Shown here: one piece after another, positions 7,686 through 40,692 of the stretch
Layout of the letters: every line of letters starts with the position of its first letter
How positions within the stretch are numbered: position 1 is the stretch's first letter
Source: Psococerastis gibbosa
Taxonomy: Eukaryota; Arthropoda; Insecta; Psocodea; Psocidae
NCBI GenBank assembly: GCA_963971405.1
Contig: OZ020491.1
Coordinates: 21,818,855 to 21,882,854 of the forward strand
Reading direction: 5' to 3'
Length of the DNA stretch: 64,000 bases
Position numbers and translations under genes: made by a program
The notes under the pieces: generated by a model
Seen by the model: only the letters and a program-made list of their open reading frames with translations
The model's database searches: none
What the model was told of the DNA's origin: nothing

Positions 7686-10600
7686 CTGCAATAATATGAC
7701 AATAATTCAAGTTGATGTTTAGTCTCCCAAAATTGAAGCTTAATTTTTAGTTTTTGAGGTGACAATAAGTCGATGAACGCTGGCTGGAACACAGCGCATG
7801 CGCGAAAATTTTTCCTTAAATCCTGCCTGATGACGTTATAAGGTCTTAGTTTAGTTTAGCCCCCGCCTTCATTCTGAAACTTTACGCCTCTGGGTAGCGT
7901 AGAGGAAACGCAGGGTCTGCGGAGTCTCCCTACACCCGATCGGCCAGAGCCGAAAGGGATTTTTTTTTGTGCGTTTGTAATGGAAGAGCATGGCAGGAAA
8001 TAACCGCACCTCCATTCTCATGTTTTCTTTGATTGCCAACGGCCTTACTATGTTGAATCCATGAGAGCAGAGCATATTTCAAACTGCGACAAACTTGGTA
8101 ATGTGCAAAGCGATGGCAGGGGAAGATAGATAGAATCCCGCCAAGTCCTTTTACTTAGGCGCCCATTCCACCGACCTGCTAGTGCTAAAAACAAATACGG
8201 TGACGTGGTAGCAGACATTCAAGACTTAGGTGGCGTTTCCACCGACCTGGCATTGCAGAATGCAAATGAAATTGACGGAAATTAGAATTTTTCTTTTTAT
8301 AGAAATCTATTAAAATGTTTGTACTTAACATATCCCATGACGCCATTTTTTAATTTTAGTTTGTTTGTGATTTTACTGTATTATCATTGATCAATTTTAA
8401 CTATGGCATAGAGGAAAATAAACATTTCCGTCAATTCTGCAATGCGAGGTCGGTGGAAACCCCGTCTAAGTCTTGAATGTCTGCTACCACGTCACCGTTT
8501 TTGTAAATAGCCCTAGCCGGTCGGTGGAATGGGCGCCTTATCCTCTAATTTCAGTTATTAATGTTTACTTACTGAAGGACCAGCAGGTGAAATGGGATCA
8601 TTATCATTGTCTCCGCTTTCAGAGCTACTATCTTCAAACTTCCGCTTCCGTCGTACATACGATTTCATAGCATTCGGTGCCAGCGATTCCTTCAACTTTT
8701 CTAAACTTTGATCTTCAGAAAATGGAGGGCAATTACATTTTTCAGGTTCCTGAAAATATAATATGAAATAAATAAATATTGACTTTTTGCTCCATTACTA
8801 AGCCGAGCGGAGAAAATATAGCAAATTAACCAACAACCTTTGGAGTCAGAGTCTGTAGTTTCTACAAGGCAATTAATAAGTTATAAGGTATTTTTATTAA
8901 TCAAAAAAACACAATACAATTAATAAATATCAAAGGGTTGGTCAACTCCCCTTTCCCCGAGGTGAAAGTGAAGCCCTTAGGGTGCCTCAAGTTAACAAAC
9001 AGACTCACTCCCCCCGCCAGGCTAAAAGGGTTGCTTAAAGCAGAAATGCTGAATGCAGGCGTTTTTTTTTTTTTTTTTTTTTTTTGCGGTGCCTCCTTAA
9101 GGTAAGGTTCGTTGCGTCGACCTTTGAGATCTATTGCAGCCGCTTAAATGCAGGCGTTAGAAACTAACTATATCAAAAGGGCCACACTAAGTGCAACCTT
9201 ATTTTCTGATTTTTAGGTTCTCACAACCGTTAAGGCAGAAATTCTGGGCTAGCGAGCCAAAACACTCGTTTTCACATCCAATGTAGGGTTTCTCTCGTGA
9301 CTTCGTGGAAACGAAACATAATGTGTAGAGTACCGTAGTAAATTAAACGACTTTTGCACAAAAATATATATATAATTAAAATTCTATAAAGAAAGCATTG
9401 TTTAATGGTTGTAATCTGATAAATGACATAACTTTCATACATCCCTCCCCACTCCTCGACCTGGCTGCCACTGTTCCCCTCCTCCCTCCCATCCCATTCG
9501 TTTAAAGCTTAACGTTAGGTAGAAACTTGTTAAACTGATGATGGTGAAACACCGAAACAGCTGTAACTGAATTTTAATTTTAATGGAGTTCTTGCGTAGT
9601 GACGTCACAGTAAGAGGGCGGAGCTAACAGCGCATGCGTGATTGCCAAAATAATGTAAACAAAATCAGCTGTTCGGCCATTGGAGGATATGAAATGCATT
9701 GAGCGCTATTGATTTTTATAGTTTTAAGTTGTTATTATTCATATTTCTAGCGTTATGGTCAAGCATTGCTGCTATGGCTTGTGTAATAGTGATAGCCTAC
9801 ACCAGGACAGAACACATATGAGAGAGGTCCGAATTATATCGTTCCCCAAGCCACTGGAAAAAATTAAGAAATGCAAGTGGAGGGTGCATCTTTGTGGCAG
9901 AACGAAGTCCACAATATTTAAAGTTACAAAATACACATATACAGTATATGCATGGCCGTACCCAGGAGGTGGCCCATGGGGTCCGCACCCCCCCCCCCCC
10001 CCGAAATAAATTTCTGCAGGTAAACCTGTATGGTTTGACGAATTTATCCATTAATTCATTAATAAATTACATAAAAAAATGTTTGGACCCCCCCCCCCCC
10101 GAAATCATAACCTGGGAACAGCCTTGTATATATGTTCAAAACATTTAGTGGATCCTAGTGGGCCAACAAAAGATTTTCCAGATCCAATTGGACAGTCGAT
10201 TGAGATCATGGCCGTAGCCAAGGGGGAGTTCAACCTCCTCCTCCTCCTCCCCCCCCCCCCCCCCCCCCGGTGATGAAATGGCTTCATACTAAATAGAATC
10301 GGATTTTAAGAGGAAAATATAAACTACTATGTAATATCCTATTACATTTCTGAACCCCCCCCCCCCCCCCCCGAAAAATCCTGGCTACAGCCTTGATTGG
10401 GATCAATAATGTATATTAATATATATCGTCGTTACTTTCCAGTGGCCATGGCCGTGCCCAGGTGGGTGGTCCATGGGGTCCGGACCCCCCCCCCCCCCGA
10501 AATAATTTTTTTATGTAAACCTGTGTTGCTTGATGACCATTAATTAAATAATAAATTACGTTAAAAAAAATTGGACCCCCCCGAAAAATCCTGGCTACGG

Positions 10601-13376
10601 CCTTGATTGGGAACAATAATGTATAGCCGTTACTTTCCAGTGGCCATGGCCGTGCCCAGGTGGGTGGTCCATGGGGTCCGGACCCCCCCCCCCCCCCCCC
10701 CCCGAAATAATTTTTTTATGTAAACCTGTAGGCCTATTGCTCGATGACCATTAATTCAATAATAAATTACGTTAATAAAATTTGGACCCCCCCCCCCTGA
10801 ATACAAAAGCTGGGCACGGCCTGTGGCCCTACGAAAATTAACTGCTTTGGTGATCAGATACTAAATTGAGTTCTTGTGATAGTATTATGGAGAGACAATA
10901 ACCCTTTTTACGCTACTAATATTTACAAACAACATGATAGGCTAGCGTGTCGGCAGCCCAGTCGACTAGGCTATATGCCATGGTAGTTATGCAGTAAAGT
11001 TGTATGGTTATGGTAATAAATCATTACTAATACATTAATTGTAATATGTATAGGCAAGCTTAGGCTCACATACCCATTTAAAAATCTGTTCTGCCTTCGC
11101 GGAAGTATCACAACCAATGAAATAAAATTAGATACACAAGTAAATAATATTTTTCGACAATTATTTGCAGCTACTTTGCCGTAATTTTTTGTCAGTACCC
11201 GCGCAAGTATTGAAGGAACATATAAATAGCACTAATTTGCCGTTTAAAAGCGAACATTTCTTAAAATAAAATAAATTTCTTTGGAAAGCCTATACACTCC
11301 ATGTTAAAATGAGGGGGTGATGTCCGAGAATCAGGGGTACCCCCTCCCTTTCCGACAGCCCGCCATCTTTGTTTTACCTGCGCAAGAACTCCATTATATA
11401 TAATTTTGTGAATTTTTTTTTTTTTTTTTTAAGGCGCGGAAATGTGGAAATTGTGCAAGTCGTTTAATTTACTACTCTACACTCGCTTTCTCTTTAAAGA
11501 GCGATTGGAAATAACTTTATTAAAAGAATACCTTTTTCTTTTAAAGTCAAGCTCATATTGCAAAGCTTAATACAGGCGGTCTAAAATCTGCGGGTGACCT
11601 CAGGTCGATGTTTTCCAGTCTACATACTTTTTTCTTTTCAATTTCTTATGTCTAGGCCTAAATCAAGTTAGAGAATAATTAATATCTATTTATGAGGCTA
11701 TGTTGATGACAGGGCGATTGTCTACTAGTTGCTAATGGACACTAATCGCCTAGACTTATTATGTTTTATTTATTGTACATTGGACAAACTCTTGAATAAA
11801 ATACTTACGTCCACGATGCCTTCAGGAAGAGGTGCATTGAACCCAGGGAATGTTACTAATTTTTTTATGTCGTAAAGATCCTTGCCTTCATCAACAATTT
11901 CTCCGTCTTCATCACCCTCTTCGAAGACAATGCCATTTTTCCCATATACAGTCACACCAGAATGAGCAATTTTTGCTTCCAATAGCCAGCCAGGTGGGTA
12001 GCCATACTTTCGCATTCTATACACATGCAAAGGCAATTGGGTTGCACTAAGACCAAGTGCACAACGAAGATCATCACTTATTTGTCCTGGGGCAAATTCG
12101 CTGTATCTGTCAATTTCAGCGTGGTAACGGCTATAAATAACAAACATTAATAAAATAGTGTTCCTTGCATTATTCCGCCAAAGTTCTAGAATAGTTAAGC
12201 AAGTGGGTTTAAGGAAGTCATAACAGAAAAGTCTAACGTTCCATGGAAATAAAGTTTCAGTCGTTAAAGATGTTATAAAAAAATCTAACATTATTTTGTA
12301 AATTACGGTAGAAAAACCACTGTTATGCACAATTGGCCTGACTTCAGATACATATTCTCCGGACCTTCCTAGTTCCTCTATTACTTTTTTTAAGACATAA
12401 TCTAATAATAATTTATCATTTTATGTAAAGTAAAGTAAATGTATTTCAAAAATTTTCCTTCGTAATACATTAATAAACATATGGGGCCCGTTAGCATTTT
12501 TGAAAGGGAATTAGGCACTTGAATATATAATTTTAATTCACTTTATTCCATGCGAGTACTAAATACAACAGAATAAACTTACCCCGGCTGCTTTGCTTTG
12601 TTCTCCATAAATTTCTTTCTGTTTTCGTTAATGACAGTATAGTTTTTGGGCCTTGTACAGTCACGAAGGGAGTGACAACCCATGCAATTAAAGCAAACTC
12701 CACCTTTCCTAGAGCTTTCTTTAGTCGTTTCTTCTTTATCAACTAGTTTTCCTAGCTCGTTCTTGTTATAAATGGGTAGCCCATCCCTTCCAAAAGGCGT
12801 TGTGTCAACTTCAAAATTGAGGAAATCATTTTGCATAACTTCAATTAACCACGGTTCATGGCTGGTTGTTTTTGAAGACCCAAACATTGTTTTACATAGA
12901 TTCAGCATAAACTTAGAGTATTCCCTACAGAATGCGTCGTCATGAAAAACTATAGACATAACACCCAAAGGAGCTGCTATTGTTTTAACCAGTTCTTCAG
13001 TCTTTTCCTCGTGTAAAACAAATATGCACAAATCGTTTGAGTCAACCATAACATGACCAAATTTCAAAACCATTTGCGTCTCAATTACACCCCTGTTACT
13101 TTTGGCAAACTTTTCGTCGTGAAATGTTATTGTCATAGCTACGGGTTTCGTGTCAATGGTGCACCCTTTTTCTTCACCTTCCGAATCGACATCCATTTCT
13201 GCTTCACTTATGACAGTTTTCTGGCTCTGCTTTTCCGACCATTCGCGAATAAAGTTATCCTTTCGCTGCTGCTCTACTTCCTTTTCTGTCCTATCCTCGT
13301 CTTCAATATCCGATATTTCACCTTCTTCAAAAATAAAGCAGTGCCTGCTACTACTTCTAGGCTTACGGCAATCCAT
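7407..13376 (-). CDS. ZCCHC8: ZCCHC8 homologue (NEXT complex scaffold)
   Basis: Four exons with matching phases (13376-12583, 12130-11809, 8749-8573, 7685-7407) give 523 residues. The family protein scaffolds the nuclear exosome targeting complex, linking the helicase MTR4 to RBM7. Visible features, in order: an acidic N-terminus (FEEGEISDIEDED); a region resembling the family N-terminal domain (MSIVFHDDAFCREYSKFM); a CCHC knuckle at C228-C240; a PSP domain at about 265-360 (ISDDLRCALGLSATQLPLHVYRMRKYGYPPGWL); and a C-terminal segment resembling the MTR4-binding end (LPDRDKFATAVSDVINYENLPDSTGTYEKM). Human ZCCHC8 is about 700 residues; the linker before the C-terminal segment is shorter here. 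The CCHC spacing is unusual (CX2CX3HX4C). The introns host several mobile elements. The start ATG at 13376 opens the first long exon; an upstream non-coding exon is possible. Confidence 0.92.
7797..7806. promoter_or_regulatory. NRF-1-like palindrome in intron 3
   Basis: GCGCATGCGC matches the NRF-1 half-site palindrome. A similar GCGCATGCG occurs in the P-like element leader at about 9631-9640. Sequence match only; no evidence of use. Confidence 0.3.
7880..7965 (-). repeat. dispersed repeat (CCCTTTCG.CTCTGGCC), copy 2
   Basis: It is the inverted counterpart of 5041-5105. Read on the minus strand it runs aaaatccctttcggctctgg, then ccgatcgggtgtagggaga. Confidence 0.6.
8155..8540. mobile_element. 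foldback element E1 (nested palindrome)
   Basis: TTA lies on both sides. Outer termini are GGCGCCCATTCCACCGACC and GGTCGGTGGAATGGGCGCC. Each arm continues with GACGTGGTAGCAGACATTCA and then a second terminus-like block (GTTTCCACCGACC / GGTCGGTGGAAAC) with an AT-rich core. It is nearly identical to E2 at 40307-40692. It lies in intron 3 of the ZCCHC8-like gene. No coding capacity. Confidence 0.88.
8573..8749 (-). CDS. ZCCHC8: ZCCHC8-like exon 3
   Basis: 177 nt, phase 0 at both ends (acceptor ttttcag|GAA, donor TCA|gtaagt). It encodes 59 residues with a basic motif YVRRKRKFEDSSSES that looks like a nuclear localisation signal. The foldback element at 8155-8540 ends 32 bp downstream of its 5' splice site. 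Confidence 0.85.
8768..8850 (-). repeat. SINE family 1 fragment
   Basis: The string ttgactttttgctccattac then taagccgagcggag matches the 3' part of the SINE copies at 55225-55415 and 63190-63375, with the middle deleted. It lies in intron 2 of the ZCCHC8-like gene. Confidence 0.55.
9061..9086. repeat. poly-T tract
   Basis: An uninterrupted run of about 25 T, probably the tail of a minus-strand retroposon. The flanking sequence could not be assigned to a family. Confidence 0.6.
9598..9625 (+). promoter_or_regulatory. CRE and GC-box pair in the P-like element leader
   Basis: The CRE consensus TGACGTCA at about 9600 and GGGCGGAGC at about 9616 lie some 150 bp upstream of the THAP start codon. 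Motif match only. Confidence 0.3.
9755..9950 (+). pseudogene. THAP-domain exon, truncated by a MITE
   Basis: The frame opens MVKHCCYGLCNSDS and continues with ISFPKPL, KKCKWRVHLCGR and FKVTKYTYT. This is the start of a THAP zinc finger (first Cys pair, FPKP, W, LCGR). Where the family would continue to the second Cys-X2-His pair, the frame instead runs into the C-rich MITE at about 9951. The domain therefore lacks half of its zinc ligands. THAP fingers bind the termini of P-type transposons; this copy cannot encode an intact one unless spliced around the insert. Confidence 0.75.
9951..10822 (+). repeat. four C-rich MITEs in a row
   Basis: Copies start at about 9951, 10208, 10447 and 10644 with CATGGCCGTRSCCA. 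The first three end with versions of CCTGGCTACGGCCTTG; the last ends GCTGGGCACGGCC. Each is 150-190 bp with two long C runs (9-20 C) around an AT-rich core (AATAAATTACGTTAA). The third and fourth copies plus spacer are a near-exact tandem duplication of about 200 bp. Confidence 0.75.
11396..11768. other. intron 2 remainder
   Basis: AT-rich sequence with a short A/T run. No further exon or repeat could be supported between the P-like element and exon 2. Confidence 0.4.
11809..12130 (-). CDS. ZCCHC8: ZCCHC8-like exon 2 (PSP domain)
   Basis: 322 nt. Acceptor ttatag|C completes a Gly codon with exon 1 and leads into RYHAEIDRYSEFAPGQISDD. Donor GAC|gtaagt is in phase 0. It contains the whole PSP (proline-rich in spliceosome-associated) domain. 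Confidence 0.92.
12583..13376 (-). CDS. ZCCHC8: ZCCHC8-like exon 1
   Basis: 794 nt, ending in phase 2 at donor GG|gtaagt. It encodes residues 1-264 plus two bases: the acidic N-terminus, the N-terminal domain and the zinc knuckle CFNCMGCHSLRDC. Confidence 0.92.
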
Positions 13377-13439
13377 AATTTATAAACGTTTAATTAATAA
13401 GCAAATTTTTTAAATAATTATTATTCAAATAATTTATCC

Positions 13440-13560
13440 ACATCCATAAAAGTATGGCGGCTTGTTGATTTCCTTATTTGGGCCCTGAGAATCAGGAATA
13501 GGGCCCTAAAAATGTGTTCAGCACGCGTCACGTCACTGCCTTCTATAATGAGCTACACGG
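13440..13560 (-). promoter_or_regulatory. probable promoter/5' region of the ZCCHC8-like gene
   Basis: This is the sequence directly upstream of the first coding exon. It has a more GC-rich patch with gcgtcacgtcactgcc (CRE/E-box-like) near 13525-13540. Placement by position only; no TATA box is evident. Confidence 0.3.
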
Positions 13561-15415
13561 TACATTTTTCACTTCTAAAAGGGCGGTAAATTAAAAATTT
13601 GATTTCATCCCATTCGCATCGCACCTATTTAGAAAAATTTCTGGGCTAATTGGCTTGGCTACATCATACATATGATATCAAAGGGGTGTCAGCGACTCAG
13701 AGGATATATATATATATCCATAACGTCATAACCAACTTCCTATGCAATATGCATCCTGATTGGACCCCTTTCAGGTAGAAATCCAAGATGAATGTTCTAA
13801 CTGCAGCCAATGGTAAAGCTTGAAAATTTTCCAATTTCATGTTAGATTCGAAAAGATTCTCATACTATTGGTCAGATTATTGCCGCCATAAAGTAACCAT
13901 AGGAAACGCTTCCGACACTTTAATACACTGCCAAGACTTACCTGGACGCAAAGCATTTGTGAAATGTGCATGAACTACATGAAGTTAACCCATTTGTTGA
14001 CGTTCTCGGAGACGAAGCATGGTAGTCACTTCCTAAAAACCCTATAGCCGTACCGTATGAAACCCAGGATCGACCTACCAGCCTATTTCTGCTGTTGATA
14101 CATAAAGTACCGTACCTACCTACCAGCAGTACGTTCCGTACTGCATTCCTATATATATATATATATACTGTATTAAATTTCAGGGATTCCGTTGATCTAA
14201 AAAAAAAATAAAAAAATCAACTCACGGAAGCACTACATAGCATATCCTTCCTGTATGTGGGGCAATCAAACTTGTGGTTTTTATGTTTCAGCATATACAG
14301 TATATATACAAGTTCAAACTAGGCTAACTTGAGTTACACAGTATTTCACAAAATTGTTAGGCCTATTCAATAGTCTATCATTGGATTCGTCTTGAGATTT
14401 ATAATTTTGTTCTGTGGGGGTTATTCATCATATAGGCTAATCTTACTCTTATCTCCAAATGGAAATGAAAAAAATCTTCAAAATAGGGTTTACAACTCTC
14501 GAGTTGTCCAAAAGAATAAAATTGCATTCCTATTAAACAAGCAAACTTAGCAGTGTAACTCGACTTACCCCAGTTGGCACATACCAGTACTACTTACGAG
14601 TGCAGGTGCATTATCCAAACGCAACGCAAAGTACTATAGGGTAGGTAAATCATTGCAGCCTGAGCATGGATTTAATTTTTCGGGGGAGTAACGCAGTTGT
14701 CCACTATGCAAGAAGTAATTTAATTGATATAAAATTGAGGATTATTAGGAGCCCGTTAATTTCTCCAAAATTTGTCAAATTAGCCTATTTAAAAAAAAAA
14801 TTACCTCGAAACTCACTATATACCCACATTAGCCTATTATGAACTTGTACAGTTGGCATGGCAGAAAAAGTTTAAATTAAAAAAAATATATATTGCAACG
14901 TTTTTGTTTTGGGATATGGGCCTAGTTCTAAGTTCATCCTAAATTGGCCCTTAACCACTGACTGGGCTACATAAGGATAATATTGCCCCCCGCCTCCACA
15001 GAACTGGATTGAAAAAGGCTATAGAAAGTGGTTAACATGATTAGACTATAACTAGGTATCTACAGTGTCTAACTTTTTGAGAAATGGGCATAATTCTGTA
15101 GGTACTTTCAAAACCAGTAACCAGGCTGTTCAAGGCTATTACCCCCCCCCCCCTCCCCCCAGAACTAGAATGCAGCAGGTCCCATAGGAAGCGTCGAATA
15201 TTATTTAACGCATACGGTACGGCCTACAACAGGATAGGTAATGAATTTAAGAAGTCAAAACGTACTCTCGGGTACAACAAATAAGGAAATGCCTCAGATC
15301 TCCGACTCTTAATGGGTGAAATAGGGACGCCAACCGGATGGGGGTTTAGGCGGGTGTATTCGCCTATTATATCAGCGCCAAAATTAATAAATCGAGGCCC
15401 ATGAGTTTGGAAGTA
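13561..15415. other. intergenic, no gene seen
   Basis: Contains TA microsatellites near 13705-13718 and 14150-14166 and a C run near 15142. No coding exon is supported. Confidence 0.5.
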
Positions 15416-15419
15416 CCAT

Positions 15420-16997: not shown

Positions 16998-18206
16998 GTG
17001 AGAAGGTTAAATAAAGATAAAATAGGTATGAAAACCAGGAGTGCGCGTAGAAAGAGGAAAGGAGTTGGCGATGAAGCCAATGAAAAATGTGATACGTGTC
17101 ATAACGATGACCCGGAAAAGAATGATTGGATTTCGTGCGATTCCTGTATGAAGTGGCATCACGCCGAGTGTCAAAGTGAAAGGATAAATATTGAAATAGT
17201 CAAACTGGTCGAGCAAATTAGAGTGAAGGAGTCAGAGTTAAGATCTTCTGGAATTGAGGTGTTCTTTAAATGCAGGTCCTGCAAGGATAAGATAGAAGCT
17301 GAAAGCCGGGAAATAAAGGACATAAAAGTACAGGTTCAGAACCTTGAAGCTAAGGTAGATGAAAAATTAGATGAGCTAAAAGAGATCATTAGGGGTGAAA
17401 GCATTAGTTCTACTACTACACAAAGCTATGCCAACAGTGTGAAGAAGAGAAATGGGGAAAAATTTCCTACACTGATGTTGAGGCCAAATATTGATCATGA
17501 TGATGCAAGGAAAAAATTTTATGACAACTTCCAGAAGTCAAATAATGAGTTCAAGATTAATAAGATATACCACAATAGAAATGGTGAGATAAAAATGGAA
17601 TTAGGCAGCAAGGGTGACTCAGAAAAGGCAAAGAAGTTCGTTGCAAAGGAGTTAAAGAGAGAATTCACAACGTCAGAACCTAAGATGATTAAACCAAAGG
17701 TAAAAATAAGAGGCTTTCAGAAACTCATGGGCTTTTCGAATGAACAGATTAAAGAAAGTCTTGTCAAGTTGAATGAATTGAAATGTGACGCAGCCCAGGA
17801 TATGAGTGTAATCAAAAGGATCAACGAGCAAAGTGGAGAGACGGAAACAATAATACTAGAAGTGGAACCAAAGGTGTTCAAGACAGTGGTTGGAACGAAG
17901 AGGTACATTGGTGGGCAGAGACTTTGGGTAAACGAATACCTAGCGATAAGGAGGTGTGGTTTCTGTTACGACTTTTCACATGGAACTGGGCAATGCGTAA
18001 AAAAGGTAAAATTGTGCTCAAGATGTGGAAGTGATAGGCACCTCCAGAAGGAATGTCGAGAGGCGAACCCCAAATGCATAAATTGTGAAGAGAGAAATGT
18101 GAAATATAGCCGAAGAGATGACATACAGCATCATATGTTATCGCATGCTTGCCCCATGTATAGGGATATGGAGAAGAGCATAAGGCGAAGGATAAGCGAT
18201 GACTGA
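16998..18206 (+). CDS. LINE ORF1: PHD-like finger, coiled coil, CCHC knuckles
   Basis: 402 residues. A PHD-type zinc finger lies at about residues 30-95 (CDTCHNDDPEKNDWISCDSC, then WHHAEC). A predicted coiled coil follows (KVQVQNLEAKVDEKLDELKE), then a basic RNA-binding-like middle. The C-terminus has clustered Cys/His knuckles (RRCGFCYDFSHGTGQC, LCSRCGSDRHLQKEC, KCINCEE). ORF1 proteins of this kind coat the element RNA. The stop overlaps the start of ORF2 in ATGACTGA (18199-18206), suggesting termination-reinitiation coupling. Upstream frames give no earlier in-frame ATG that I could support. Confidence 0.85.
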   Translation: MRRLNKDKIGMKTRSARRKRKGVGDEANEKCDTCHNDDPEKNDWISCDSCMKWHHAECQSERINIEIVKLVEQIRVKESELRSSGIEVFFKCRSCKDKIEAESREIKDIKVQVQNLEAKVDEKLDELKEIIRGESISSTTTQSYANSVKKRNGEKFPTLMLRPNIDHDDARKKFYDNFQKSNNEFKINKIYHNRNGEIKMELGSKGDSEKAKKFVAKELKREFTTSEPKMIKPKVKIRGFQKLMGFSNEQIKESLVKLNELKCDAAQDMSVIKRINEQSGETETIILEVEPKVFKTVVGTKRYIGGQRLWVNEYLAIRRCGFCYDFSHGTGQCVKKVKLCSRCGSDRHLQKECREANPKCINCEERNVKYSRRDDIQHHMLSHACPMYRDMEKSIRRRISDD

Positions 18207-21019
18207 TATACTGTATATGAATATTCAAGGTATGAACACGAAAGACTTGGATGAGCTGAAGCAATTAATAAGGAAATATAAGGATCCTAGTTTTGTGCTA
18301 TTAGCCGAAACTCATATTACAGACGTGTCAGATGAAAAATTATTTGATTTGGGTGAGATTGGTTACAATGCTATCAACATGGTGTCACACAGTCAGAGCA
18401 CGGGAGGAGTAATACTGTATCATAAAATAAACATAAAAGTGGAAATTTTAATGACTTATGATAGCAAGTGGATATGGGGTATAATTGTAAAAACTAAGAG
18501 CTTGAAACTGAACGTAGTAGTAGGAGTGTTCTACAGATCGCCGAGTGGTAAGGAAATGGATTTTGTTGTGGCAATGAAAGAATGGTTAACTTGGTTGGAT
18601 AAAGTGAAGAAAGAGTATAGCATTGTGTTATGTGCCGACGCCAACATAAACCTAAACGATGGTTCGAATACGAAGTATAAGAGAGAGCTGCTAGAGGTAA
18701 TACGTGAAGAGGAGATGAAGCAGATAGTCAAAGAGGATACGAGAATCACAAATAAATCTAGTACATTGATAGACCACGTATATACGAACAATGAAAGTGA
18801 CGTCGAGTGCACGTTAGATATGGAAGCATGCATAGCGGACCACGTCGTTATTGCTATCTCCTTACGGAAGGGGAGGATAACGGGTGAGCAGAAGCAGGAC
18901 ACACTGGTAATACCTGGCAAAGTTGATTGGCGGAGAGTAAAGACGGCGTTGACGGGCTTCGTGGCCGAGGGAAATGGGAGTAATGAAATATATGAAGAAC
19001 TGCACAAAAAAATTCAAAGCGTGATACGTGACGCAACCCTACCTAGTGTAAAAATAAAAAGGAATAGATACTGTCCATTTTTTACTAGAGAGGTTCAAGA
19101 AGCAAGGCGAGCTAAAGTAAACTTGTTTAAGAAGTTCCGTTACATGAAGAGGGTGTTTGAGGAAAACAGAACAAGGTCCAATAGAGTTGCGATGGATGAA
19201 ACGTGGTCCGAGTTTAAAAGAGCAAGGAATAAGTTTACAGTGTCACTGAGAAACAGTAAAAACCAGTATTACCTCAATAAAATTGAACAATGTGGTAAGG
19301 ATCAGAAGAAAATGTGGAGGGAACTAAAGTCAATATTGAATATTAGTAAGAATGAGGTGACGATTGATGCAGGGCGGGGGGGATGAGGTAAACAAGTACT
19401 ATATCGAGAGTATAGAGCAGCTGATAAATGCAAATGTGAAAAGCGTGAATTTTTTTGATGAGGAGGAAGGGCAGCTCGAGAGGATTCTAACGGATGTACA
19501 AGTACCGTCAAAACAAAAGTTAAAGAAAATAGTAGCCACTTTCAAGAACGGTGGGTCGGTTGAGCCAAATGGAAGAACGCTTAAGGAATGCTGGACTGAA
19601 GTGGAAGATAGTGTATTCAAACTAGTCGAAGCATGTATTAATGAAAATAAAATGCCGGACCAGCTGAAGATATCGATTATAACCCCTATTCCGAAGGTAA
19701 GGGGGGCATCTAAGCCGGAAGAGTTTCGTCCTGTGAACGTGCTGCCAGCGCTCGAAAAAGTCGTAGAGACTGTATACTTTGATGAACTGAAAGCACACAT
19801 CGAGAACAACAAACTACTATCATGCTACCAATCTGGTTTCAGGGAGAAACATTCCACGGAAAACGTGTTGCAATTTGTCTTAGAGAGGTGGAGAGTGGAA
19901 AAAAAGAGGAACAAAGTAATTATTGCTGTGTTTTTAGATTTGAAACGAGCATTTGAAACAGTGGACAGGCAGCAGCTAGTGAAAGTGTTGGAGGGAATGG
20001 GAGTTCGTGGAAATGTCCTGGAATGGTTTAAGAACTACCTGATGAATAGAAAGCAGAGAGTGAAATATAAAGACGGCATATCTGATCCAAGAAGGGTGGA
20101 GTTCGGTGTACCACAGGGTAGTAAATTAGGAGGAATTCTCTTCATTCTGTTTATAAATTTCCTACCAAAGCTGGCCAGAAGTTGTAACATCCAATTGTTC
20201 GCTGATGACGCATTAATTTATATTATAGGTGACAATGTGCACGAAATGATTCGGAAACTGAATATTGAGCTGGATAGAATTTTTGGATGGCTGTCGGCCA
20301 GGAACCTGGTGATTAACATTGGTAAGACGAAAGTGTTAATGATAAACGTAAAATCTGATCAAAGGCTAAATGATGTGGCAATGGGAGGGATGAAGATCGA
20401 AGCAGTGGATAAAATCAAATATCTAGGAGTGTGGATTGACAGTTCTTTGAACCTAAAATCACAATTTGAGGCAGTATACAGGAAGCTGAAACAGAGACTA
20501 TCACTATTCAGAAGGCTGCGGTACTGCCTACCGAGGGAAACGAAAAAACTCGTCTTTACGGCTCTGATTAAACCACACATGGACTACTGTGGAACTCTAT
20601 GGTTCTTTGCAACACAGGATGTACGCGACAGATTGCAGAAAATTATGAATCAGGCGATGCGAGTGATTCTGAAGGCGAAATGGGACACCCACATTAGTAC
20701 CATGTTGGATGAGTTAGACTGGTTAACAGTGGGTGAGAGTATTACGATTAACGCCCTAACATTTATATATAAGGTGGAGAAGAGAATGGTCCCGGACTAC
20801 TTACAAGTTCTAAATCGCGGGCATGATGTTCACGAGTATAGAACAAGGCGTAGGAGTGATGTGAGTGTCATCGGATCGCAAGTGAAATCTATGTTTGACG
20901 TAATACCTGAGTATAACAGACTTCCCAGGGAAATAAAAAGCGTAATGGACCCAAAGAAGTTTAGAGTAGCACTGGCAAAAAAATTGAAGAGCGAAAGAAT
21001 GCGGCACCAAAGGCAATAG
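18199..21019 (+). pseudogene. LINE ORF2: endonuclease and reverse transcriptase, frameshifted
   Basis: The first part (18199-19386) encodes an APE-type endonuclease: NIQGMNT, AETH, GVFYRSPSG, ADANINL, STLIDHVYTN and ADHVVI in the family order. The second part (19364-21019) encodes the reverse transcriptase, with FLDLKRAFETVD, GVPQGSKLGGILF and the catalytic FADDALIY. It ends in a thumb and C-terminal region (FNVIPEYNRLP-like). The two parts are in frames 1 and 2 and meet at a run of seven G (19376-19382); one base gained or lost there breaks the protein. A sequencing error in the homopolymer is an alternative explanation. No RNase H domain is seen. Confidence 0.88.
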
Positions 21020-22370: not shown

Positions 22371-22763
22371 TTAAGGCTGAGTGTTCAAAATGTTTTGTAA
22401 ACAAGAAATTATCGTACTTTTTGGACGAAATTAATTAATTGCTCGTTCCACAGCCACAAAGATATAAAAGGGAACAGATGAAAAAATCTTAAAAAATACG
22501 AGCTTTCTGTGAAAGCTGTCTATTTCCCTTACAGATTTACAACTGTGCTACAAAATGGGTATAAAGCTCTTTATCCAATTTTTTAAGGTAATAATATTTC
22601 AGTTCAGAAAATATAAACTTCCTGCGATAACTTGGATTTTGTATGAGTTTTTTATCTGTTCACTTTGTTATCTTTGTATCTGTGGAATGAGCAATAAATT
22701 ATTTTCGTCAAAAAAATCAGCAAAATTTCTTGCTTACAAAACATTTTGAACACTCAGCCTTAA
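22371..22763. mobile_element. TTAA-flanked MITE, copy 2
   Basis: TTAA at 22371-22374 and 22760-22763. Terminal inverted repeats are GGCTGAGTGTTCAAAATG and CATTTTGAACACTCAGCC. The interior matches copy 1 (6920-7313) in reverse orientation. About 390 bp, no coding capacity. Confidence 0.9.
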
Positions 22764-31249: not shown

Positions 31250-31832
31250 TAGGCGGCCATTCCACTTGAAAATTGACTTTGTCATTGGCCTTTGTTTTGT
31301 TTAAGGCGGGGTTTCCACATACGTCAATCGTCAATGAAAAATGTGAAAATTACGTAAAAATGACGTAAATTGACGTGGTAGCACTAGAGCACATACTACT
31401 GCAGTGCTCGGACCCATGCACAAAAGATCCTGTGCACGCCGAACATGTAGGCACTAGCGTCAAGGGGATTTCTGAGACATCAGGCAGTCGGCATCACCTG
31501 AGCTGGAAGCCCTGTACTAAGAAGTAAGAAGTAAGAAGTAAGTAACGTGGTAGCAGAATTTTTGGAATGTCTTTAATGTCTGCTAAAACGTCATTTTAAC
31601 ATTTTTCATTGACGATTGACGTATGTGGAAACCCCGCCTAAGGAGACTATTATATAGATACTTAACGTATCTATTATAAATTAAGTTATAACATGGTAGA
31701 GACTTATTAATGATGTCTGCCACCATATCATAACTTAATTTAACATAGATAAGTTAAGTCTCCTTAAAACAAAACAAATGTCAATGACAAAGTCAATTTT
31801 TCAAGTAAATTCGCCGGTGGAATGGCCGCCTA
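31250..31832. mobile_element. foldback element E3 (compound, nested)
   Basis: Outer termini are AGGCGGCCATTCCACTTG and GGTGGAATGGCCGCCTAA, with arms running to TTTGTTTTGTTTTAAG. Inside the left half lies a second foldback (31302-31642) with termini AAGGCGGGGTTTCCACATAC and GTATGTGGAAACCCCGCCTT-like, and arms with GTCAATCGTCAATGAAAAAT. The inner element carries the GACGTGGTAGCA module and is itself split by a retroposon (31384-31544). The right half has a third palindrome around AGTCTCCTT. Confidence 0.82.
31384..31544 (+). mobile_element. 5'-truncated LINE tail with 11-bp duplication
   Basis: ACGTGGTAGCA is duplicated at 31373-31383 and 31545-31555. The 161-bp insert ends in an AAGTAAG repeat after a stop codon. 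Its frame (LLQCSDPCTKDPVHAEHV, ending WKPCTKK) looks like the extreme C-terminus of a non-LTR ORF. It inserted into the shared foldback module, so it is younger than E3. Confidence 0.75.
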
Positions 31833-31839
31833 AGTGCAT

Positions 31840-31978: not shown

Positions 31979-32059
31979 AGACAAAATTCATCGGTGACTC
32001 GCGCGTGCCGAATCGTCCGGGCCATAGACTATAACAGGTACAATAACAGCTCATGTACG

Positions 32060-32246: not shown

Positions 32247-32410
32247 CTGAAAAATAAATAAAAATTATTAGAATCTCGTCCTATCTTCTACCTACGGACT
32301 CTCGCAATTTACATAAAGGACGCCCTCAACAAAGTTGTCTGGAAACGCCGCTGCCGTGCCACCGACCCTCCTTGAGGACAAGGGCGGCGTAAAAGTATAA
32401 AAGTAAAGTA

Positions 32411-32778: not shown

Positions 32779-32783
32779 TTTTA

Positions 32784-33160: not shown

Positions 33161-33163
33161 AGC

Positions 33164-33368
33164 TTAAGGCGGCTATTCCACCGACCTCGTTTTGCATAAT
33201 GCAAGTGCATGACGTGGTAGCAGACATCATTAACTTAATTTATAATAGATAAGTTAATTATCTACATTATAGTCTCCTTAAAATATGGCAGAGACTTATT
33301 AATGATGTCTGCTACCACGTCCTGCACTTGCATTATGCAAAACGAGGTCTGTGGAATAGCCGCCCAAG
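33164..33368. mobile_element. foldback element E4
   Basis: Arms of about 70 bp: AAGGCGGCTATTCCACCGAC, GTTTTGCATAATGCAAGTGC and GACGTGGTAGCAGACATCAT on the left, inverted on the right up to GTCTGTGGAATAGCCGCC. The core contains ATAGATAAGTTAATTA and GTCTCCTTAAAATATGG, also found in E3. Confidence 0.88.
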
Positions 33369-33659
33369 TTAAGCGGCCTGGAGCGAAGCTGGGAAGGGCC
33401 CTTCAGTAGGTACCTTAGTGAGCCTGATGGGCCCCCAATTGAATATCACCCCTTCTCCGGGTGCACTGATGGGGAACCTCATAAAACCCTCCCACCTTAC
33501 TAAGACTAGCAAGTCTACTATATAAAGAGGAAATAAAAACGATAATGGAGGAGTCCTTAGCTTATGTGAATATCGGACCCCCCCCCCCCCCATGCATTGG
33601 GAAATGTTGACCGCCGTGGAGTCATCAATGAGCCACCACAAGTTAGAATTAAGGCGAAA

Positions 33660-33955
33660 CGTTTAATGGCACTGAAAATGCTTCTCTCTTATTACTTAAA
33701 CATGAATATCTCTGTAGGCGGCCATTTAACACATCTAATGGCACTGAAAAGGCTTCTCTCTTATTACTTAAACATGAATATCTCTGTAGGCGGCCTATTA
33801 ACACATCTTATGGCACTGAAAATGTTTCTCTCCTATTACTTAAACATGAATATCTCTGTAGGCGGCCATTCAACGCATCTAATGGCACTGAAAATACTTT
33901 TCTACACTTATTTGTCCGTCAATGACGCTGTAAGCGACTGTTATTATTCTTAGTG
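33660..33955 (+). repeat. 72-bp minisatellite (four units)
   Basis: Units start with ATGGCACTGAAAA at 33666, 33738, 33810 and 33882, exactly 72 bp apart; a degenerate unit follows near 33990. Because 72 is divisible by three and the unit lacks stops, the array reads as a 24-residue repeat. There is no other sign of coding. Confidence 0.92.
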
Positions 33956-33959
33956 TTAT

Positions 33960-34768: not shown

Positions 34769-34781
34769 AGCCAGGCTTTAT

Positions 34782-35301
34782 AGAGCAAGGTCGGGAGTTG
34801 GTGATGCAGTGGACTCCGAGTCACGTCAACATACTTGGAAATGAAAAGGCGGACTTCTTGGCAAAGATGGGCACAAAACTACCTCAGCCCAGCAAAGCAA
34901 CACCCCTCACGGCTGTGAAAAACCTCATAGACATATCAGTACGGAGGCCAAACCAGGACAGACTGCGACTAGCCTCAAGTGGAAAACAATGGAGCACACT
35001 GTTGAACAAACCCGTAAAGAAGAACCTACCACGGCCCACTTCAGTAGCAGTCTTCAGAACAATAACCGGGCACGATCTTTTGGCATCCCACCTCCACCGA
35101 ATTGGAATATTGAGGTCCCCCGACTGCGTCCTGTGCGGGAGTACCCCTATGGCCGCCAGCCACCTCAAGGACTGCCCGATGCTTGATGATGAAAGAAACG
35201 ATCGACTTACCGGAGATGAACACACGGCACATCTATACTGGTCAGCGCGGCGCCTGATGGCAGAAATGCCAAGGGTGGGCGTTGGCTAGTAAGTAGTAAG
35301 T
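34782..35301 (+). pseudogene. 5'-truncated I-like LINE (RNase H end) with 13-bp duplication
   Basis: AGCCAGGCTTTAT at 34769-34781 is repeated at 35302-35314. The 520-bp insert encodes only the last part of the RNase H domain (MQWTPSHVNILGNEKADFLA) and the C-terminal Cys motif (CVLCGSTPMAASHLKDCP), ending HLYWSARRLMAEMPRVGVG and stop. A TAAGTAG tail follows. It is related to, but diverged from, the full copy starting 500 bp downstream. Confidence 0.9.
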
Positions 35302-35314
35302 AGCCAGGCTTTAT

Positions 35315-35800
35315 TGAGGAATCTTCCACTCGTCTCATCGGCAGCGCCAACGCAAAAGCTGCCACAGCCTGTCCGGAACGGAACGTTGCGCAAGCTGCTC
35401 ATTAAGTAGGCCTATTCCCCGAAGAGTACCTCCGCTAATGCCTCTCGTCATCTTTGGGGATGACGTAAAGAATGCTGAAACAACAAAATATTGTAATTTA
35501 AAAAATCCGTCCAATCACCTAGTGTAGGCAGATCTCTTAAGACTGCTTCCGATATTGAGGCGTGTTGTAGCCTACTTTTGAATTATAACTCAGTGGTAGC
35601 CACTATATGTATAAATTAGGAAATGTAAAATAAACTGGTCGGTATGGTCGGAGCTGTCAGCCTGCCCTATCCGGGCAGGCTAACAGCTAACAAAGTATTG
35701 TCCTGCACTCTACCGTTGGCTCGGATCAAGAACCCTTGTAAGTTATATTCCATGAAAGAGGAATCGCCAATGAGCTATTTTGTACAACATTATGAACGTT
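35315..35800. other. spacer or 5' region of the I-like LINE
   Basis: No gag-like ORF is seen. A GC-rich hairpin (GCCTGCCC TATC CGGGCAGGC form, 35661-35681) lies 120 bp upstream of the long ORF and may belong to the element's 5' UTR. Confidence 0.35.
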
Positions 35801-38800
35801 AATGCAGGTAAGTAGTTCTCTCTTGCTCTCTCGTGGTGCACCCTGGATAACGCTAAATCTGCTACGGCGATCGCCGAAGAACACCTTCTCAAGCCACTCC
35901 GGTATGACTGAAAGAACCGCCAACAGCCCTTCTCAGGGCTTTGACGAAGCCCTGCGCATCATTTTTTGGAATGCAGGAGGGCTGAACATATCGAAATTTA
36001 CCGAACTAAGAACTATTATTACTGAATGCGACGCAGACATCTTTATTATTGTCGAAGCGGGAGCTTCAACTGAAGCGCAATGTTTTTATAACGTGACAAA
36101 CTACTCCATTCACACACTTAAAAGATCAAGACAAGTAGCATCGGGCATAATTGTGGGAGTCAGCAACAAATTTGCCAGTAAAGTAACCAATCTGCACGAA
36201 ATGACCGAAACTGACAAACTGGAAGCCGTGCGCATAGACGCTTGGCCCAATGGGACACACTTTAAGATAATAGGACTCTACAACCCACCAAACAACGTCC
36301 CAAGCACAGAAGAAATAAAAAACATCTGCAACCATAGCAACAGCATAGTCATCGGTGACTTCAATGCGCACTCGACAAGATGGGGATACCAAAACCGAAA
36401 TCGCACAGGCCAAACGATCGAAGACCTACTGGACAACTCCGTCCTGACGCAAATACCATCTGAACCAACATTCCTGTCGTTCTCTGGATCAACTAGTAGC
36501 CCCGACCTTGCTCTTGTGCATGCAAACCTCCTCGCAAGAAGTCAGCTGCAACTGTTGGACGCTGTTGAAGGCTGCGGTCACCGGGCTCTAAAGTTAAGCA
36601 TCGCTAACAAGAAACAAACCAAACCGCAACTACTACCCAGGTGGAGCTTTCGAAAAGCCAACTGGAAAAAATTTGTAGCTCTCACCAATGAAATCCTACC
36701 TGCCAGCGTAATAGAAGGAAGTATCGACAAGGCAGCGGCACGCTTCGCAAATGGGATCCTCGAGGCAGCCAAAAAGAGCGTACCAAGAGGCCAAGTAAAA
36801 AAGCACAGACCCTTCTGGAATTCAACTCTCACTACACTGAAAAGAAGCAGAAACTATGCTAGAAAGAGAGCGGAAAGGACAAAAAACATGGCTGACTGCA
36901 TAATCCTAAGAAAATCTCAAGCCACCCTCACGAGAGAAATACTTCAAGCCAAAAGATCAACATACAGAGACTTCGTCGCAAAACTAGATTTCCGGAAGGA
37001 TGGACTAAAAGCTCACAGATTCATTGGTAGCCTCAACAATGACAAGTCACAACATCGCTTCGAGCCTATTGTCAAAAATGGAAGAACACTAACAAAACCA
37101 AGAGATATAGCCAACGCATTATGCAAACACTACGCAGCAGTGAGCAGGACCAATCTCACCCAAGCCGAAAGGAGAAATCTCAGAGATCAACCAACCGCCG
37201 CTTGTCCTACTAAATCGGAGTACAAGACAATGTACAAAAAATTTAACTACAATGAACTCGAAGCCGCTTTATCAACTCTGAAAAAAGGCAAATCAGCTGG
37301 GCCCGACAAGATATTCCCAGAATTTCTACGTAACCTTGGATCTGAAGCAAAGAAAACGTTTCTAGACCTCATCAACGCTACCTGGGATGGAACTGTGCCG
37401 AACGCTTGGAAGAAAGCCACGATAATACCCCTGCTTAAAAAGGGCAAACCACCCACCGAACTCGAAAGTTATCGTCCCATTTCTATCACAAGCGTCTGCT
37501 GCAAAGTGGCTGAAAAGATGATTGAAAAAAGACTAAGAGAATATCTCGAGAGTAAATGTCTTCTGAGTGACCACCAAGCAGGATTCCGCAAACACCGCTC
37601 CACGATAGACCAAGTGGTTAAATTCACGCAGGCAGTCAAAGACGGCTTCCACAAGAAACAGTCCACCCTGGCAGTACTTATCGATTTCAAGGCCGCTTAT
37701 GACAAAATTCTACGCCCTATGCTTATAAAGAAACTAAAACTCCTTGGTATTAAAGGAAAAATGCTGCGCTGGATAAAAAGCTTCCTATCACAGCGGTTCA
37801 TCAGATGCAACTACAAGAATGTTGCTTCATTTAACAGGCAACAGCGTCAAGGCCTGCCACAAGGGGCCGTCCTCAGCTGTTTACTCTTCAACATAATGAT
37901 CAACGACTTCCTCGAAGCAGTAAATAAAACACCAGGCGTATCGTGCTTACTATTCGCCGACGACATCGTAATCTGGGCAACCAGCAGCCATATTAAAGGT
38001 CTCGAAACCACACTCAACGCAACCCTCAAAAACATAGAAGAGTGGGCGGACATAAATAAGATGACTATAAATACACAAAAAACCTTCACTCAACTATTTA
38101 CAATGAGCACAAGAAGACATACAATCAATCTCCACTATAAAGGATCCTTGCTCGAACAAGTCACAACATCGAAATATCTCGGTATGACGCTAGATACGAA
38201 ACTAACTTGGAAGGACCATATTCAGCAAACTTCGGAGAAGGCCCAAAAACGAAACAATTTACTTAAACGTCTTACGGCGACTGAATGGGGGGCGACTCAA
38301 GATGTACTGGCGACTGCTTACAAAACCTACGTAAGGCCGGCAATGGAATATGGCACAGAAGTAATTGCACTTGCCGCCGAGACAAATTTATCGAAATTCG
38401 ATATAGTTCAGAACAATGCACTGCGAACAATAACAGGTGGCGCCAAGTCGACACCTATACCAGCAATGCAAATGCAGACAGGGATTGAGCCTTTGGAATC
38501 AAGGCGCGACAAACTCAATCTTAAATTCTGGGAAAGAGCCAAACCTGTAGACCACAAGTACTGGAACACCTACCGACAACCAAGCCTCCGTCTAAGAACG
38601 CAAAACACGCCTTTAGCACATGCCCAGTCACTAGTCGCAAAGTACAATCTTCAGCTCGGCGAACCCGCCCCACTGACTCAATATACATCAATCGTCGCCG
38701 CCCTTCCAAACGCCCAATTGACACTCAACAGCCTGAATTCGTCCAAAGCAATGACAAATCCCCTAGAACTACAAAAGTGCGCATTGGAAACCATACACCT

Positions 38801-39625
38801 AAACTATCCCTCGCACGAATGGGTCCACATCTACACCGACGGGTCATATATACCACAATCGAGTTCAACAGGGGCAGGCGTCCACTCAAGCCTCTTCGAG
38901 AAATACACTGCAGTTGGCAAATACTGCAGCAACTTCGACGGGGAATTAAGCGCCATTCACGAAGCAGTCTCCTGTTTGCAAAGTTCAAGCACCCAACTAA
39001 GACGTGTTGTATTCCTCATTGACTCTCAATCTGCTATCCAAGCGCTGAGCAGAAACACCCCCACAGACTGCCAAAGAACTATGCAATGCCGCAGTTCACT
39101 TGCGAACCTAATATCCAAAGGTTGGACGGTATGGCTGCAGTGGATCCCGAGCCATGTTGGGATCATAGGAAATGAAAAAGCGGACGAGCTGGCCAAGAAA
39201 GGGGCAATGGAACCGCAACCTATTCTGCCCCAATCCCTACAAGCAGCTCGCAACCATATTGACTCTACCATCACACGACATACCGCGAACAAGTTGAAGA
39301 GCGATGGTGAGGGGAAAAAGTGGGAGAGCCTCTCCACCGAGGCCGGGCGAATCCCTAAGAATCTCGACCGCCATGCATCTGTGGCCCTATTCCGCACATT
39401 GACGGGACACGACTATCTCCAAGCACATCTTCACCGAATTGGTCTAGCAGAGGAAGAAATCTGCCCCCTATGCCGTACAGGAAGAATGGACAGCGATCAT
39501 CTCTACCAGTGTCCTCAACTGCAGGCAACACCACAAAACACAGTCAGTCTATACTGGGAGGCTCGACGTCAGATGGCAGAACGGCCACGGACGGGCGTTG
39601 GATAAAGTAAAGTAAGTAAGTGCAT
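35640..39625 (+). mobile_element. I-like non-LTR retrotransposon, near-complete
   Basis: It consists of the 1267-residue ORF plus a terminal tail TAAAGTAAAGTAAGTAAGTG directly after the stop. Simple repeats of TAA-containing units at the 3' end are characteristic of I-clade elements. The 5' boundary is approximate and no target duplication was found. Confidence 0.75.
35802..39605 (+). CDS. I-like LINE polyprotein: APE endonuclease, RT, RNase H
   Basis: One uninterrupted 1267-residue ORF. The endonuclease begins at about residue 50 (RIIFWNAGGL) and includes GDFNAHSTRWG and SPDLALVH. The reverse transcriptase has STLAVLIDFKAAYDK, GLPQGAVLSCLLFN and the catalytic LLFADDIVIW at about 710-720. 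RNase H follows at about 1005-1130, with TDGSY, GELSAIHEA, LIDSQSAI and PSHVGIIGNEKADELA, so all acidic positions are kept. The C-terminus has CPLCRTGRMDSDHLYQCP and ends RQMAERPRTGVG. Such proteins nick target DNA and copy the element RNA in place. No ORF1 precedes it, so the element is single-ORF, 5'-truncated or relies on ORF1 in trans. The ATG at 35802 is the first in frame; the functional start may be the later Met before the endonuclease. Confidence 0.93.
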   Translation: MQVSSSLLLSRGAPWITLNLLRRSPKNTFSSHSGMTERTANSPSQGFDEALRIIFWNAGGLNISKFTELRTIITECDADIFIIVEAGASTEAQCFYNVTNYSIHTLKRSRQVASGIIVGVSNKFASKVTNLHEMTETDKLEAVRIDAWPNGTHFKIIGLYNPPNNVPSTEEIKNICNHSNSIVIGDFNAHSTRWGYQNRNRTGQTIEDLLDNSVLTQIPSEPTFLSFSGSTSSPDLALVHANLLARSQLQLLDAVEGCGHRALKLSIANKKQTKPQLLPRWSFRKANWKKFVALTNEILPASVIEGSIDKAAARFANGILEAAKKSVPRGQVKKHRPFWNSTLTTLKRSRNYARKRAERTKNMADCIILRKSQATLTREILQAKRSTYRDFVAKLDFRKDGLKAHRFIGSLNNDKSQHRFEPIVKNGRTLTKPRDIANALCKHYAAVSRTNLTQAERRNLRDQPTAACPTKSEYKTMYKKFNYNELEAALSTLKKGKSAGPDKIFPEFLRNLGSEAKKTFLDLINATWDGTVPNAWKKATIIPLLKKGKPPTELESYRPISITSVCCKVAEKMIEKRLREYLESKCLLSDHQAGFRKHRSTIDQVVKFTQAVKDGFHKKQSTLAVLIDFKAAYDKILRPMLIKKLKLLGIKGKMLRWIKSFLSQRFIRCNYKNVASFNRQQRQGLPQGAVLSCLLFNIMINDFLEAVNKTPGVSCLLFADDIVIWATSSHIKGLETTLNATLKNIEEWADINKMTINTQKTFTQLFTMSTRRHTINLHYKGSLLEQVTTSKYLGMTLDTKLTWKDHIQQTSEKAQKRNNLLKRLTATEWGATQDVLATAYKTYVRPAMEYGTEVIALAAETNLSKFDIVQNNALRTITGGAKSTPIPAMQMQTGIEPLESRRDKLNLKFWERAKPVDHKYWNTYRQPSLRLRTQNTPLAHAQSLVAKYNLQLGEPAPLTQYTSIVAALPNAQLTLNSLNSSKAMTNPLELQKCALETIHLNYPSHEWVHIYTDGSYIPQSSSTGAGVHSSLFEKYTAVGKYCSNFDGELSAIHEAVSCLQSSSTQLRRVVFLIDSQSAIQALSRNTPTDCQRTMQCRSSLANLISKGWTVWLQWIPSHVGIIGNEKADELAKKGAMEPQPILPQSLQAARNHIDSTITRHTANKLKSDGEGKKWESLSTEAGRIPKNLDRHASVALFRTLTGHDYLQAHLHRIGLAEEEICPLCRTGRMDSDHLYQCPQLQATPQNTVSLYWEARRQMAERPRTGVG

Positions 39626-39696
39626 TATTAAGTGCACTTATTAAGCATCAGTAGTAATGACTCGGTCTAGCTCCGTATATTAACAGTTGGACTTAC

Positions 39697-39852
39697 CATT
39701 TCACCGCCGGGCCTCCGGTTGGGTTTACTCCTGTTAGGCCACATGTGGGTGCCACGAAATTGATTTGGGCGACTTCTAAATCAGCCCAGCCTGGTGACGC
39801 CGCCAGTCACGTGGGATACATTGAAAGGTGAAGACGCATTGTTGTGTGTTAG
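39697..39852 (-). CDS. candidate first coding exon of an unidentified gene
   Basis: Acceptor ttctttcag at the right and a strong donor ATG|gtaagt at the left. An ATG in favourable context opens MWPNRSKPNRRPGGEM and ends in phase 0 at the donor. This would splice in frame to the candidate exon ending at 32246. Family not recognised; could also be a non-coding exon. Confidence 0.3.
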
Positions 39853-39859
39853 CTGAAAG

Positions 39860-40305
39860 AACCAAAATTGATAATGGATTAAAATTGAAATTCCGAAAAA
39901 AATGTGTATAGGCTACACAGTTGTTCATCCCATGTGTCCCTGAATCAAAAACCGCCAAAATGTTTGGTATTTGTATATAAAAACCTGCAATCCATCATGT
40001 CAACGGCATTAGTTCAACATTTGTGGGCGACATGCCTTGATGACTTTTGATGGGAATCTACAGTATGATGGTCAATGATTACAAAAAAAAAAAAAAAAAA
40101 AAAAATGGAAACATTTGGTCGCACATTTTCAGACATCGGCATAGCTTGTGGACATACAGTGCCTCTTATTGGAATCTCCGACTTGCCACAACTTGTCCAA
40201 GTGAATAATCTAAGCACTGATTGAGACTGCCGAAAACCAGTACTGTAGTAATGCTTAACAGTAATAGGTCCGATAGGGCTTGGCTTTTCCTCCACATTTT
40301 CTTGG
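39860..40305. other. intergenic or intronic, no gene seen
   Basis: Contains a 23-nt A run at about 40082-40105. A minus-strand open stretch (about 40110-40295) has no recognisable domain. Confidence 0.35.
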
Positions 40306-40306
40306 G

Positions 40307-40692
40307 TTAGGCGCCCATTCCACCGACCGGCTAGGGCTATTTACAAAAACGGTGACGTGGTAGCAGACATTCAAGACTTAGGTGGCGTTACCACCGACCT
40401 CGCATTGCAGAATGCAAATGGCATTGACGGAAATTAGAATTTTTCTTTTTATAGAAATCTATTAAAATGTTTATACTGAACATATCCCATGACGCCATTT
40501 TTTAATTTTAGTTTGTTTGTGATTTTACTGTATGATCATTGATCAATTTTAACTATGGCATAGAGGAAAATAAACATTTCCGTCAATTCTGCAATGCGAG
40601 GTCGGTGGAAACCCCGCCTAAGTCTTGAATGTCTGCTACCACGTCACTGTTTTTGTAAATAGCCCTAGCCGGTCGGTGGAATGGGCGCCTTA
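40307..40692. mobile_element. foldback element E2
   Basis: TTA on both sides. Termini GGCGCCCATTCCACCGACC and GGTCGGTGGAATGGGCGCC. The arms carry GCTATTTACAAAAACGGTGA, GACGTGGTAGCAGACATTCA and the inner GACCTCGCATTGCAGAATGC. It is nearly the same length as E1 (8155-8540) and closely similar throughout; E2 has the cleaner left arm. Confidence 0.9.

Follow-up and report, generated by a model that had tools for sequence, protein, structure and literature searches.

Foldback elements with common ends, some lying inside others, in a 64-kb window of the Psococerastis gibbosa genome

Several palindromic elements with similar ends lie in one stretch of the P. gibbosa genome, some of them within others. 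What kind of element they are, what could have moved them and how one came to lie inside another are the questions raised by this locus. The window, i.e. the whole stretch of DNA analysed, is 64 kb long and has a GC content of 39%. An initial annotation had described six foldback elements, E1 to E6, and had suggested that the family grows by insertion into its own palindrome centres. As it gave no coordinates for the single elements, the boundaries and numbering of E1-E6 and of E3i used below are a reconstruction made in this analysis.

Common ends, a common module and foldback structure

The elements and their parts, with the triplets that flank them on the left and right, are as follows.

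E1, 8158-8537, no strand: 380-bp palindromic element, outer arms of 71 nt, flanks TTA/TTA
E1 inner block, 8229-8466, no strand: 238 bp, terminus-like ends of its own (GGTGGCGTTTCCACCGACC / GACGGGGTTTCCACCGACC), flanks TTA/TAA
E3, 31252-31830, no strand: outer element, 242 bp after subtraction of E3i and one triplet, flanks CTA/TAA
E3i, 31305-31638, no strand: complete smaller foldback inside the left arm of E3, flanks TAA/TAA
SINE-like insert of E3i, 31384-31544, plus strand: 161 bp, labelled by eye, GTAAGAA-type tail, 11-bp direct repeats
E3 core, 31639-31762, no strand: X at 31639-31688, Y' at 31686-31725, inverted X at about 31727-31762
E4, 33168-33364, no strand: foldback with Y as its arms and block X in its loop, flanks TAA/CAA
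Block X in E4, 33231-33280, minus strand: 92% identical to 31639-31688 of E3
E2, 40310-40689, no strand: second copy of E1, 96% identical, flanks TTA/TTA
E2 inner block, 40381-40618, no strand: structure as in the E1 inner block, flanks TTA/TAA
E5, 45796-45934, no strand: 139-bp palindrome, inner block absent, flanks TAA/TAA
E6, 61664-62105, no strand: 442-bp element, arms of 41 nt, module absent, flanks TTA/TAA

The terminus GGCGGNNWTTCCAC is common to all six foldback elements. With up to three mismatches allowed, the terminus pattern TTARGCGGNNWTTCCAC matched the window 23 times, against a mean of 5.2 and a maximum of 15 in 100 shuffles; 17 of these matches are ends of elements or of inner blocks, and the remaining six are at about the level of chance. 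Both termini of E5 are degenerate, the left one too much so to be counted among the 23. The internal module GACGTGGTAGCAGACAT, exact or in degenerate form, is found at 11 sites in the window, with 0.05 expected, and is present in five of the elements. Eight copies are exact and form pairs in E1, E2, E4 and E5; three are degenerate, two of them in E3i and one in the E3 core. The module lies 44 nt from the element end in E1 and E2, 43 nt in E4, 45 nt in E5 and 46 nt on the right side of E3i, and the left-side module of E3i, which is interrupted by the insert, lies 67 nt from the end. Five of the six elements fold back over most of their length, the exception being E6 with its short arms. Eight of the 19 local inverted alignments in the window with an E-value below 1e-5 lie in E1-E6, and no palindrome alignment arose in any of 20 first-order Markov simulations. 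The shared termini, the module common to E1-E5 and the palindromic structure reported by the initial annotation are therefore real and far above chance, with the reservation that the module copies in E3 and E3i are degenerate, and E5 and E6 extend the set beyond the interval of 8155-40692 in which it had been placed. These results support the view that E1-E6 are related foldback elements that form one set and share their ends, and that some of them lie inside others.

No match to the window was obtained in Rfam at gathering thresholds or in a tRNA search, and a full-text search of the paper collection consulted, for the letters of the module and of five termini, also returned none. The foldback ends of E1-E6 are likewise absent from the passages of PMC4482050, PMC3310237 and PMC3695323 on which we draw. 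Matches to the module in one viral contig (L001) and in prokaryote genome contigs (11 matches, L002-L012) were treated as chance; all 12 loci hold a single exact module, with neither an inverted partner nor, within about 400 nt, an exact GGCGGNNWTTCCAC, and three longer patterns searched in viral contigs gave no match.

Other repeats are found in the same window. A second foldback family, with ends TTAAGGCTGAGTGTTCAAAATG, has copies at 22371-22763 (TTAA on both sides) and 6928-7303. A third palindromic family is represented at 59641-59969 by a 329-bp foldback with ends CTGCAGCCTGATCGRGGCG and 88% self-complementarity, with partial relatives at 6649-6923 together with 7312-7352, at 42196-42441 and at 61437-61656. 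A relative of this 329-bp foldback is interrupted near position 40 (289 in mirror) by the second-family copy, which spans about 6924-7311, and the 329-bp foldback has TTAA at the split point. One unit of a 72-bp tandem repeat (33659-33936, nearly four units) contains GGCGGCCATTCAAC / TAGGCGGCCATTCAAC, which differs from the terminus by one base, and no palindrome was found at this repeat. An inverted pair at 62695-63372 appears by eye to be tRNA-derived and SINE-like (GTGGTGGTAAGGACTC...GGTTCGAGTCC), and 55227-55381 is also similar. At 51671-51985, a 45-bp tandem repeat lies in a 268-aa ORF with a weak Pfam match to DUF4763, below its cut-off; this ORF possibly encodes a repeat protein.

Target flanks and the kind of transposase

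The flanks of the inner block are alike in E1 and E2 and were counted once, which gives eight insertions with 16 ends. TTA or TAA adjoins 14 of the 16 ends, where the background frequency of the two triplets is 5.3%; the terminus pattern starts with TTA and is thereby biased towards such flanks, and a shorter pattern recovers the same ends. An exact 3-bp direct repeat flanks four of the eight insertions (E1, E2, E3i and E5), three are one base off and one is two bases off. The test named by the initial annotation, a constant target duplication, gives a mixed picture: seven of eight insertions are within one base of a TWA repeat, but only half are exact. In E3, E6 and the E1/E2 inner block the flanks are symmetric or nearly so (TTA or CTA on the left, TAA on the right), and a direct repeat is absent. 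As a random middle base would match in about half of the cases anyway, exact repeats are not by themselves sufficient proof of a 3-bp duplication. The flanking triplets therefore speak for TWA targets, and more weakly for direct duplication. With the ends set inside TWA, the first base is G at all ends.

We consider it likely that E1-E6 are non-autonomous foldback MITEs with one end-type, GGCGGNNWTTCCAC, and TWA targets, presumably mobilised by a PIF/Harbinger-type (PHIS) transposase. In this window they are short and non-coding, have terminal inverted repeats and occur in multiple copies with the same ends. According to the relevant passages of PMC4482050, PIF/Harbinger elements make TWA duplications, their first TIR base is usually A or G and their TIRs measure 5-1042 bp; PMC3695323 describes MITEs that fold along their whole length as well as nested ones, for example a Tourist-like element lodged in another MITE. 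E1-E6 resemble PIF/Harbinger (Tourist-like) MITEs in their TWA flanks, the first base G, the near-complete foldback, the lack of visible coding capacity and the nesting. They differ in that a partner transposase was not seen in the window and that the exact TWA repeat is missing in four of eight insertions. In its simplest form, represented by E5 and by the outer part of E1 and E2, such an element would be a palindrome of 139 bp in which a subterminal motif lies 44-45 nt from each end, and this motif is plausibly a second contact for the transposase. The closed-up lengths of E4 (128 bp) and of E3i without its insert (162 bp) differ from 139 bp, and these, together with the left module of E3i at 67 nt, count against the proposal.

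The transposase itself would be encoded elsewhere in the genome and would have moved E1-E6 in trans. With a minimum length of 75 aa, the window holds 120 stop-to-stop ORFs. All 98 that lie mostly outside the two LINE regions were scanned against Pfam, three of them as start-to-stop versions, and the E-value limit was 0.001, 0.05 or 0.01 depending on the batch; the other 22 lie mostly inside the LINE regions, and four LINE ORFs were scanned. The coding features that bear on the question are the following.

LINE-type reverse-transcriptase elements, two: ORFs at 16998-21019 and 35802-39605
hAT-type open frame, 1-2286, minus strand: 762 aa, runs off the window, DUF4371 (E=1e-19)
THAP open frame, 43641-43904, minus strand: 88 aa, THAP DNA-binding domain (E=7e-10)

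In addition, exon-sized open frames with PSP, Fz, trypsin, LDL-receptor class A and THAP domains were found with Pfam. None of the 98 ORFs matched a PIF/Harbinger transposase, and the only hint of a Myb/SANT partner in the scanned ORFs was a weak Myb-like score (E 0.007, below cut-off) within the hAT ORF. The earlier statement that no transposase with the ends of E1-E6 is visible therefore holds for these 98 ORFs as scanned against Pfam. Judged from its domain match, the 762-aa ORF probably encodes a hAT-type transposase; its match to the hAT dimerisation domain is weak, below its cut-off. It is an unlikely partner of E1-E6, since hAT target duplications measure 5-8 bp in the passages of PMC4482050 that list them. 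The THAP frame could be of host origin or derived from a transposon, and we see no link between it and the ends of E1-E6.

It is unlikely that the elements are instead MITEs moved by a different superfamily whose ends begin with GG and whose target is short and AT-rich, i.e. ISL2EU, NuwaII, Zator, Kolobok or piggyBac. Insertion at TTAA is a feature of piggyBac and Kolobok, and no element has TTAA on both sides; a TTAA duplication was accordingly rejected. Insertion at TA is a feature of Tc1/mariner, and a TA duplication, also rejected, fits E3, E6 and the inner block (three of eight insertions) and fails for E1, E2, E3i, E4 and E5. The ends of E1-E6 do begin with GG, which is typical also of ISL2EU, and ISL2EU transposases carry a THAP domain such as that encoded at 43641-43904 (PMC4482050, in the sections on these groups). 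The same sections give the ISL2EU duplication as AT within A|AT|T and the NuwaII target as C|TNA|G. However, AT directly abuts no element end, AT duplications are absent, which led us to reject the ISL2EU pattern, and C and G around TNA are not constant. The long inverted arms also recall foldback transposons (Galileo, Tetris, FB). FB elements have tandem subrepeats in their arms, whereas E1-E6 are short and no such subrepeats were seen in them by eye.

Composite elements and their order of insertion

The initial annotation had noted a second terminus-like block at the centre of E1 and E2, and this was confirmed, with bounds of 8229-8466 and 40381-40618. The block is exactly central, with 71 nt left on either side. 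Without the inner block and one triplet, E1 and E2 each measure 139 bp, the same as E5, and their closed loop, ATTCAAGAC-TTA-GTCTTGAAT, aligns with the short loop of E5, ATTAAGAC-A-GTCTAAAAAT. The equal length and the loop alignment support the view that the block entered an E5-like unit at its loop. No similarity is seen between the 200-nt flanks of E1 and those of E2, whereas the two elements are 96% identical, which indicates that one composite was copied; the same identity leads us to count the inner block, on sequence grounds, as one ancestral event. The interior of E6 at 61759-61834 resembles that of the inner block in a gapped local alignment of 76 columns, with 78-79% identity and E-values of 9e-14 to 2e-15, a likeness that would be expected if both had arisen by deletion from one longer parent. 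If E1-E6 are PIF/Harbinger-mobilised MITEs, the ancestor of E1 and E2 would have been a 139-bp unit that took up a related MITE, with an E6-like interior, in its TWA-containing loop, and that may then have transposed as a composite. Plant MULEs with tandem TIRs offer a parallel, as terminus blocks, an outer and an inner one at each side, are amplified together, and their inner TIR, which lacks a clear duplication, is possibly comparable to that of E1 and E2 (PMC3310237, in the passages on tandem TIRs). They belong to another superfamily with other ends, and for E1 and E2 there is E5, an empty unit of equal length; nested insertion is therefore better supported for E1 and E2 than the tandem-TIR parallel.

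The complete smaller foldback described within E3 is likewise present. E3i lies in an arm of E3, whose closed form measures 242 bp; the insertion point follows position 53 and is thus off-centre. Removal of E3i and one TAA gives back the sequence of the opposite arm of E3 except for one T (opposite arm GTTTTGTTTTAAGGAGACT, closed-up occupied arm GTTTTGTTTAAGGAGACT), so that E3 carries its own empty site, apart from this T. This internal empty site supports a 3-bp duplication at E3i. E3i in turn holds the SINE-like insert after position 79 of its 162-bp closed form, between 11-bp direct repeats, ACGTGGTAGCA, that derive from the module; no second copy of this insert was found in the window at an E-value of 0.01. 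The nesting gives the order of events as E3, then E3i, then the SINE-like insert, such that E3 would have taken up E3i in its arm and E3i would later have taken up the SINE-like insert.

The E3/E4 exchange and growth through palindrome centres

The AGTCTCC..GAGACTT blocks were found to be common to E3 and E4 in different arrangements, as had been claimed, and the difference is an exchange of order. Block Y' of E3 (31686-31725) is 90% identical to 33278-33317 of E4. In E4 the order is Y-X'-Y' and the stem is Y; in the E3 core the order is X-Y'-X' and the stem is X. Simple insertion does not account for this exchange, which is the least ordinary point of the locus. Fold-back copying at a short inverted repeat inside Y', an unproven process, would explain it. 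More specifically, template switching in a hairpin at TGGYAGA/TCTGCYACCA, a pair recognised by eye, could have turned an E4-like Y-X'-Y' into the X-Y'-X' of the E3 core, and similar copying could have made the inner flanks of E1 and E2 symmetric, a sequence of events to which we assign a low probability. Taken generally, i.e. with one arm serving as template for the other and with no transposition involved, hairpin-directed copying would account at once for this rearrangement and for the flanks of the inner block, which are fully symmetric (GACTTA/TAAGTC), as well as for those of E6, which are symmetric at TTA/TAA, and of E3, which are nearly so. However, one substitution likewise converts TTA/TTA to TTA/TAA, and the closed loop of E5 at the point of the E1/E2 inner block fits plain insertion, and we regard this general explanation as quite unlikely.

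The proposal that the family grows by insertion into its own palindrome centres was upheld in respect of nesting; growth through the centres was not established. The window holds five nested insertions. Three of them (the E1/E2 inner block, the E4 central insert and the SINE-like insert of E3i) lie in the middle of the host unit or close to it, and two do not, i.e. E3i in E3 and, in another family, the unrelated foldback near position 40 of a relative of the 329-bp foldback. The E4 insert has TTAA on either side and lies at the centre of a CATCATTAATGATG palindrome; it and the SINE-like insert are without the ends of the family, which leaves only two cases in which one family member has entered another, the E1/E2 inner block at the centre and E3i away from it. 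TWA occurs three times in closed E1 and three times in closed E2, in each case once at the centre, and five times in E5; with three sites, a central hit has a chance of about one in three without any preference. A preference for the centre is therefore unneeded, and five events neither establish nor exclude one. Repeated insertion with a preference for the hairpin tip or a cruciform would fit the three insertions near the middle; against it stand the two off-centre insertions, the two inserts without the family ends and just three TWA sites per closed E1 or E2 unit, and we regard it as quite unlikely.

Judged from this window, the family is of a known kind, MITE-like with TWA targets and probably PIF/Harbinger-mobilised, in which nesting is real and one rearrangement is not accounted for by simple insertion. 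It adds a foldback MITE family with a modular anatomy, i.e. a 139-bp form, a conserved subterminal motif and composite descendants. Apart from the E3/E4 exchange, this is ordinary genome biology. The swapped stem and loop of E3 and E4 provide a concrete case for asking whether hairpin copying reshapes MITEs; if template switching did occur, new MITE lineages would arise by permutation, and not by deletion from an autonomous parent.
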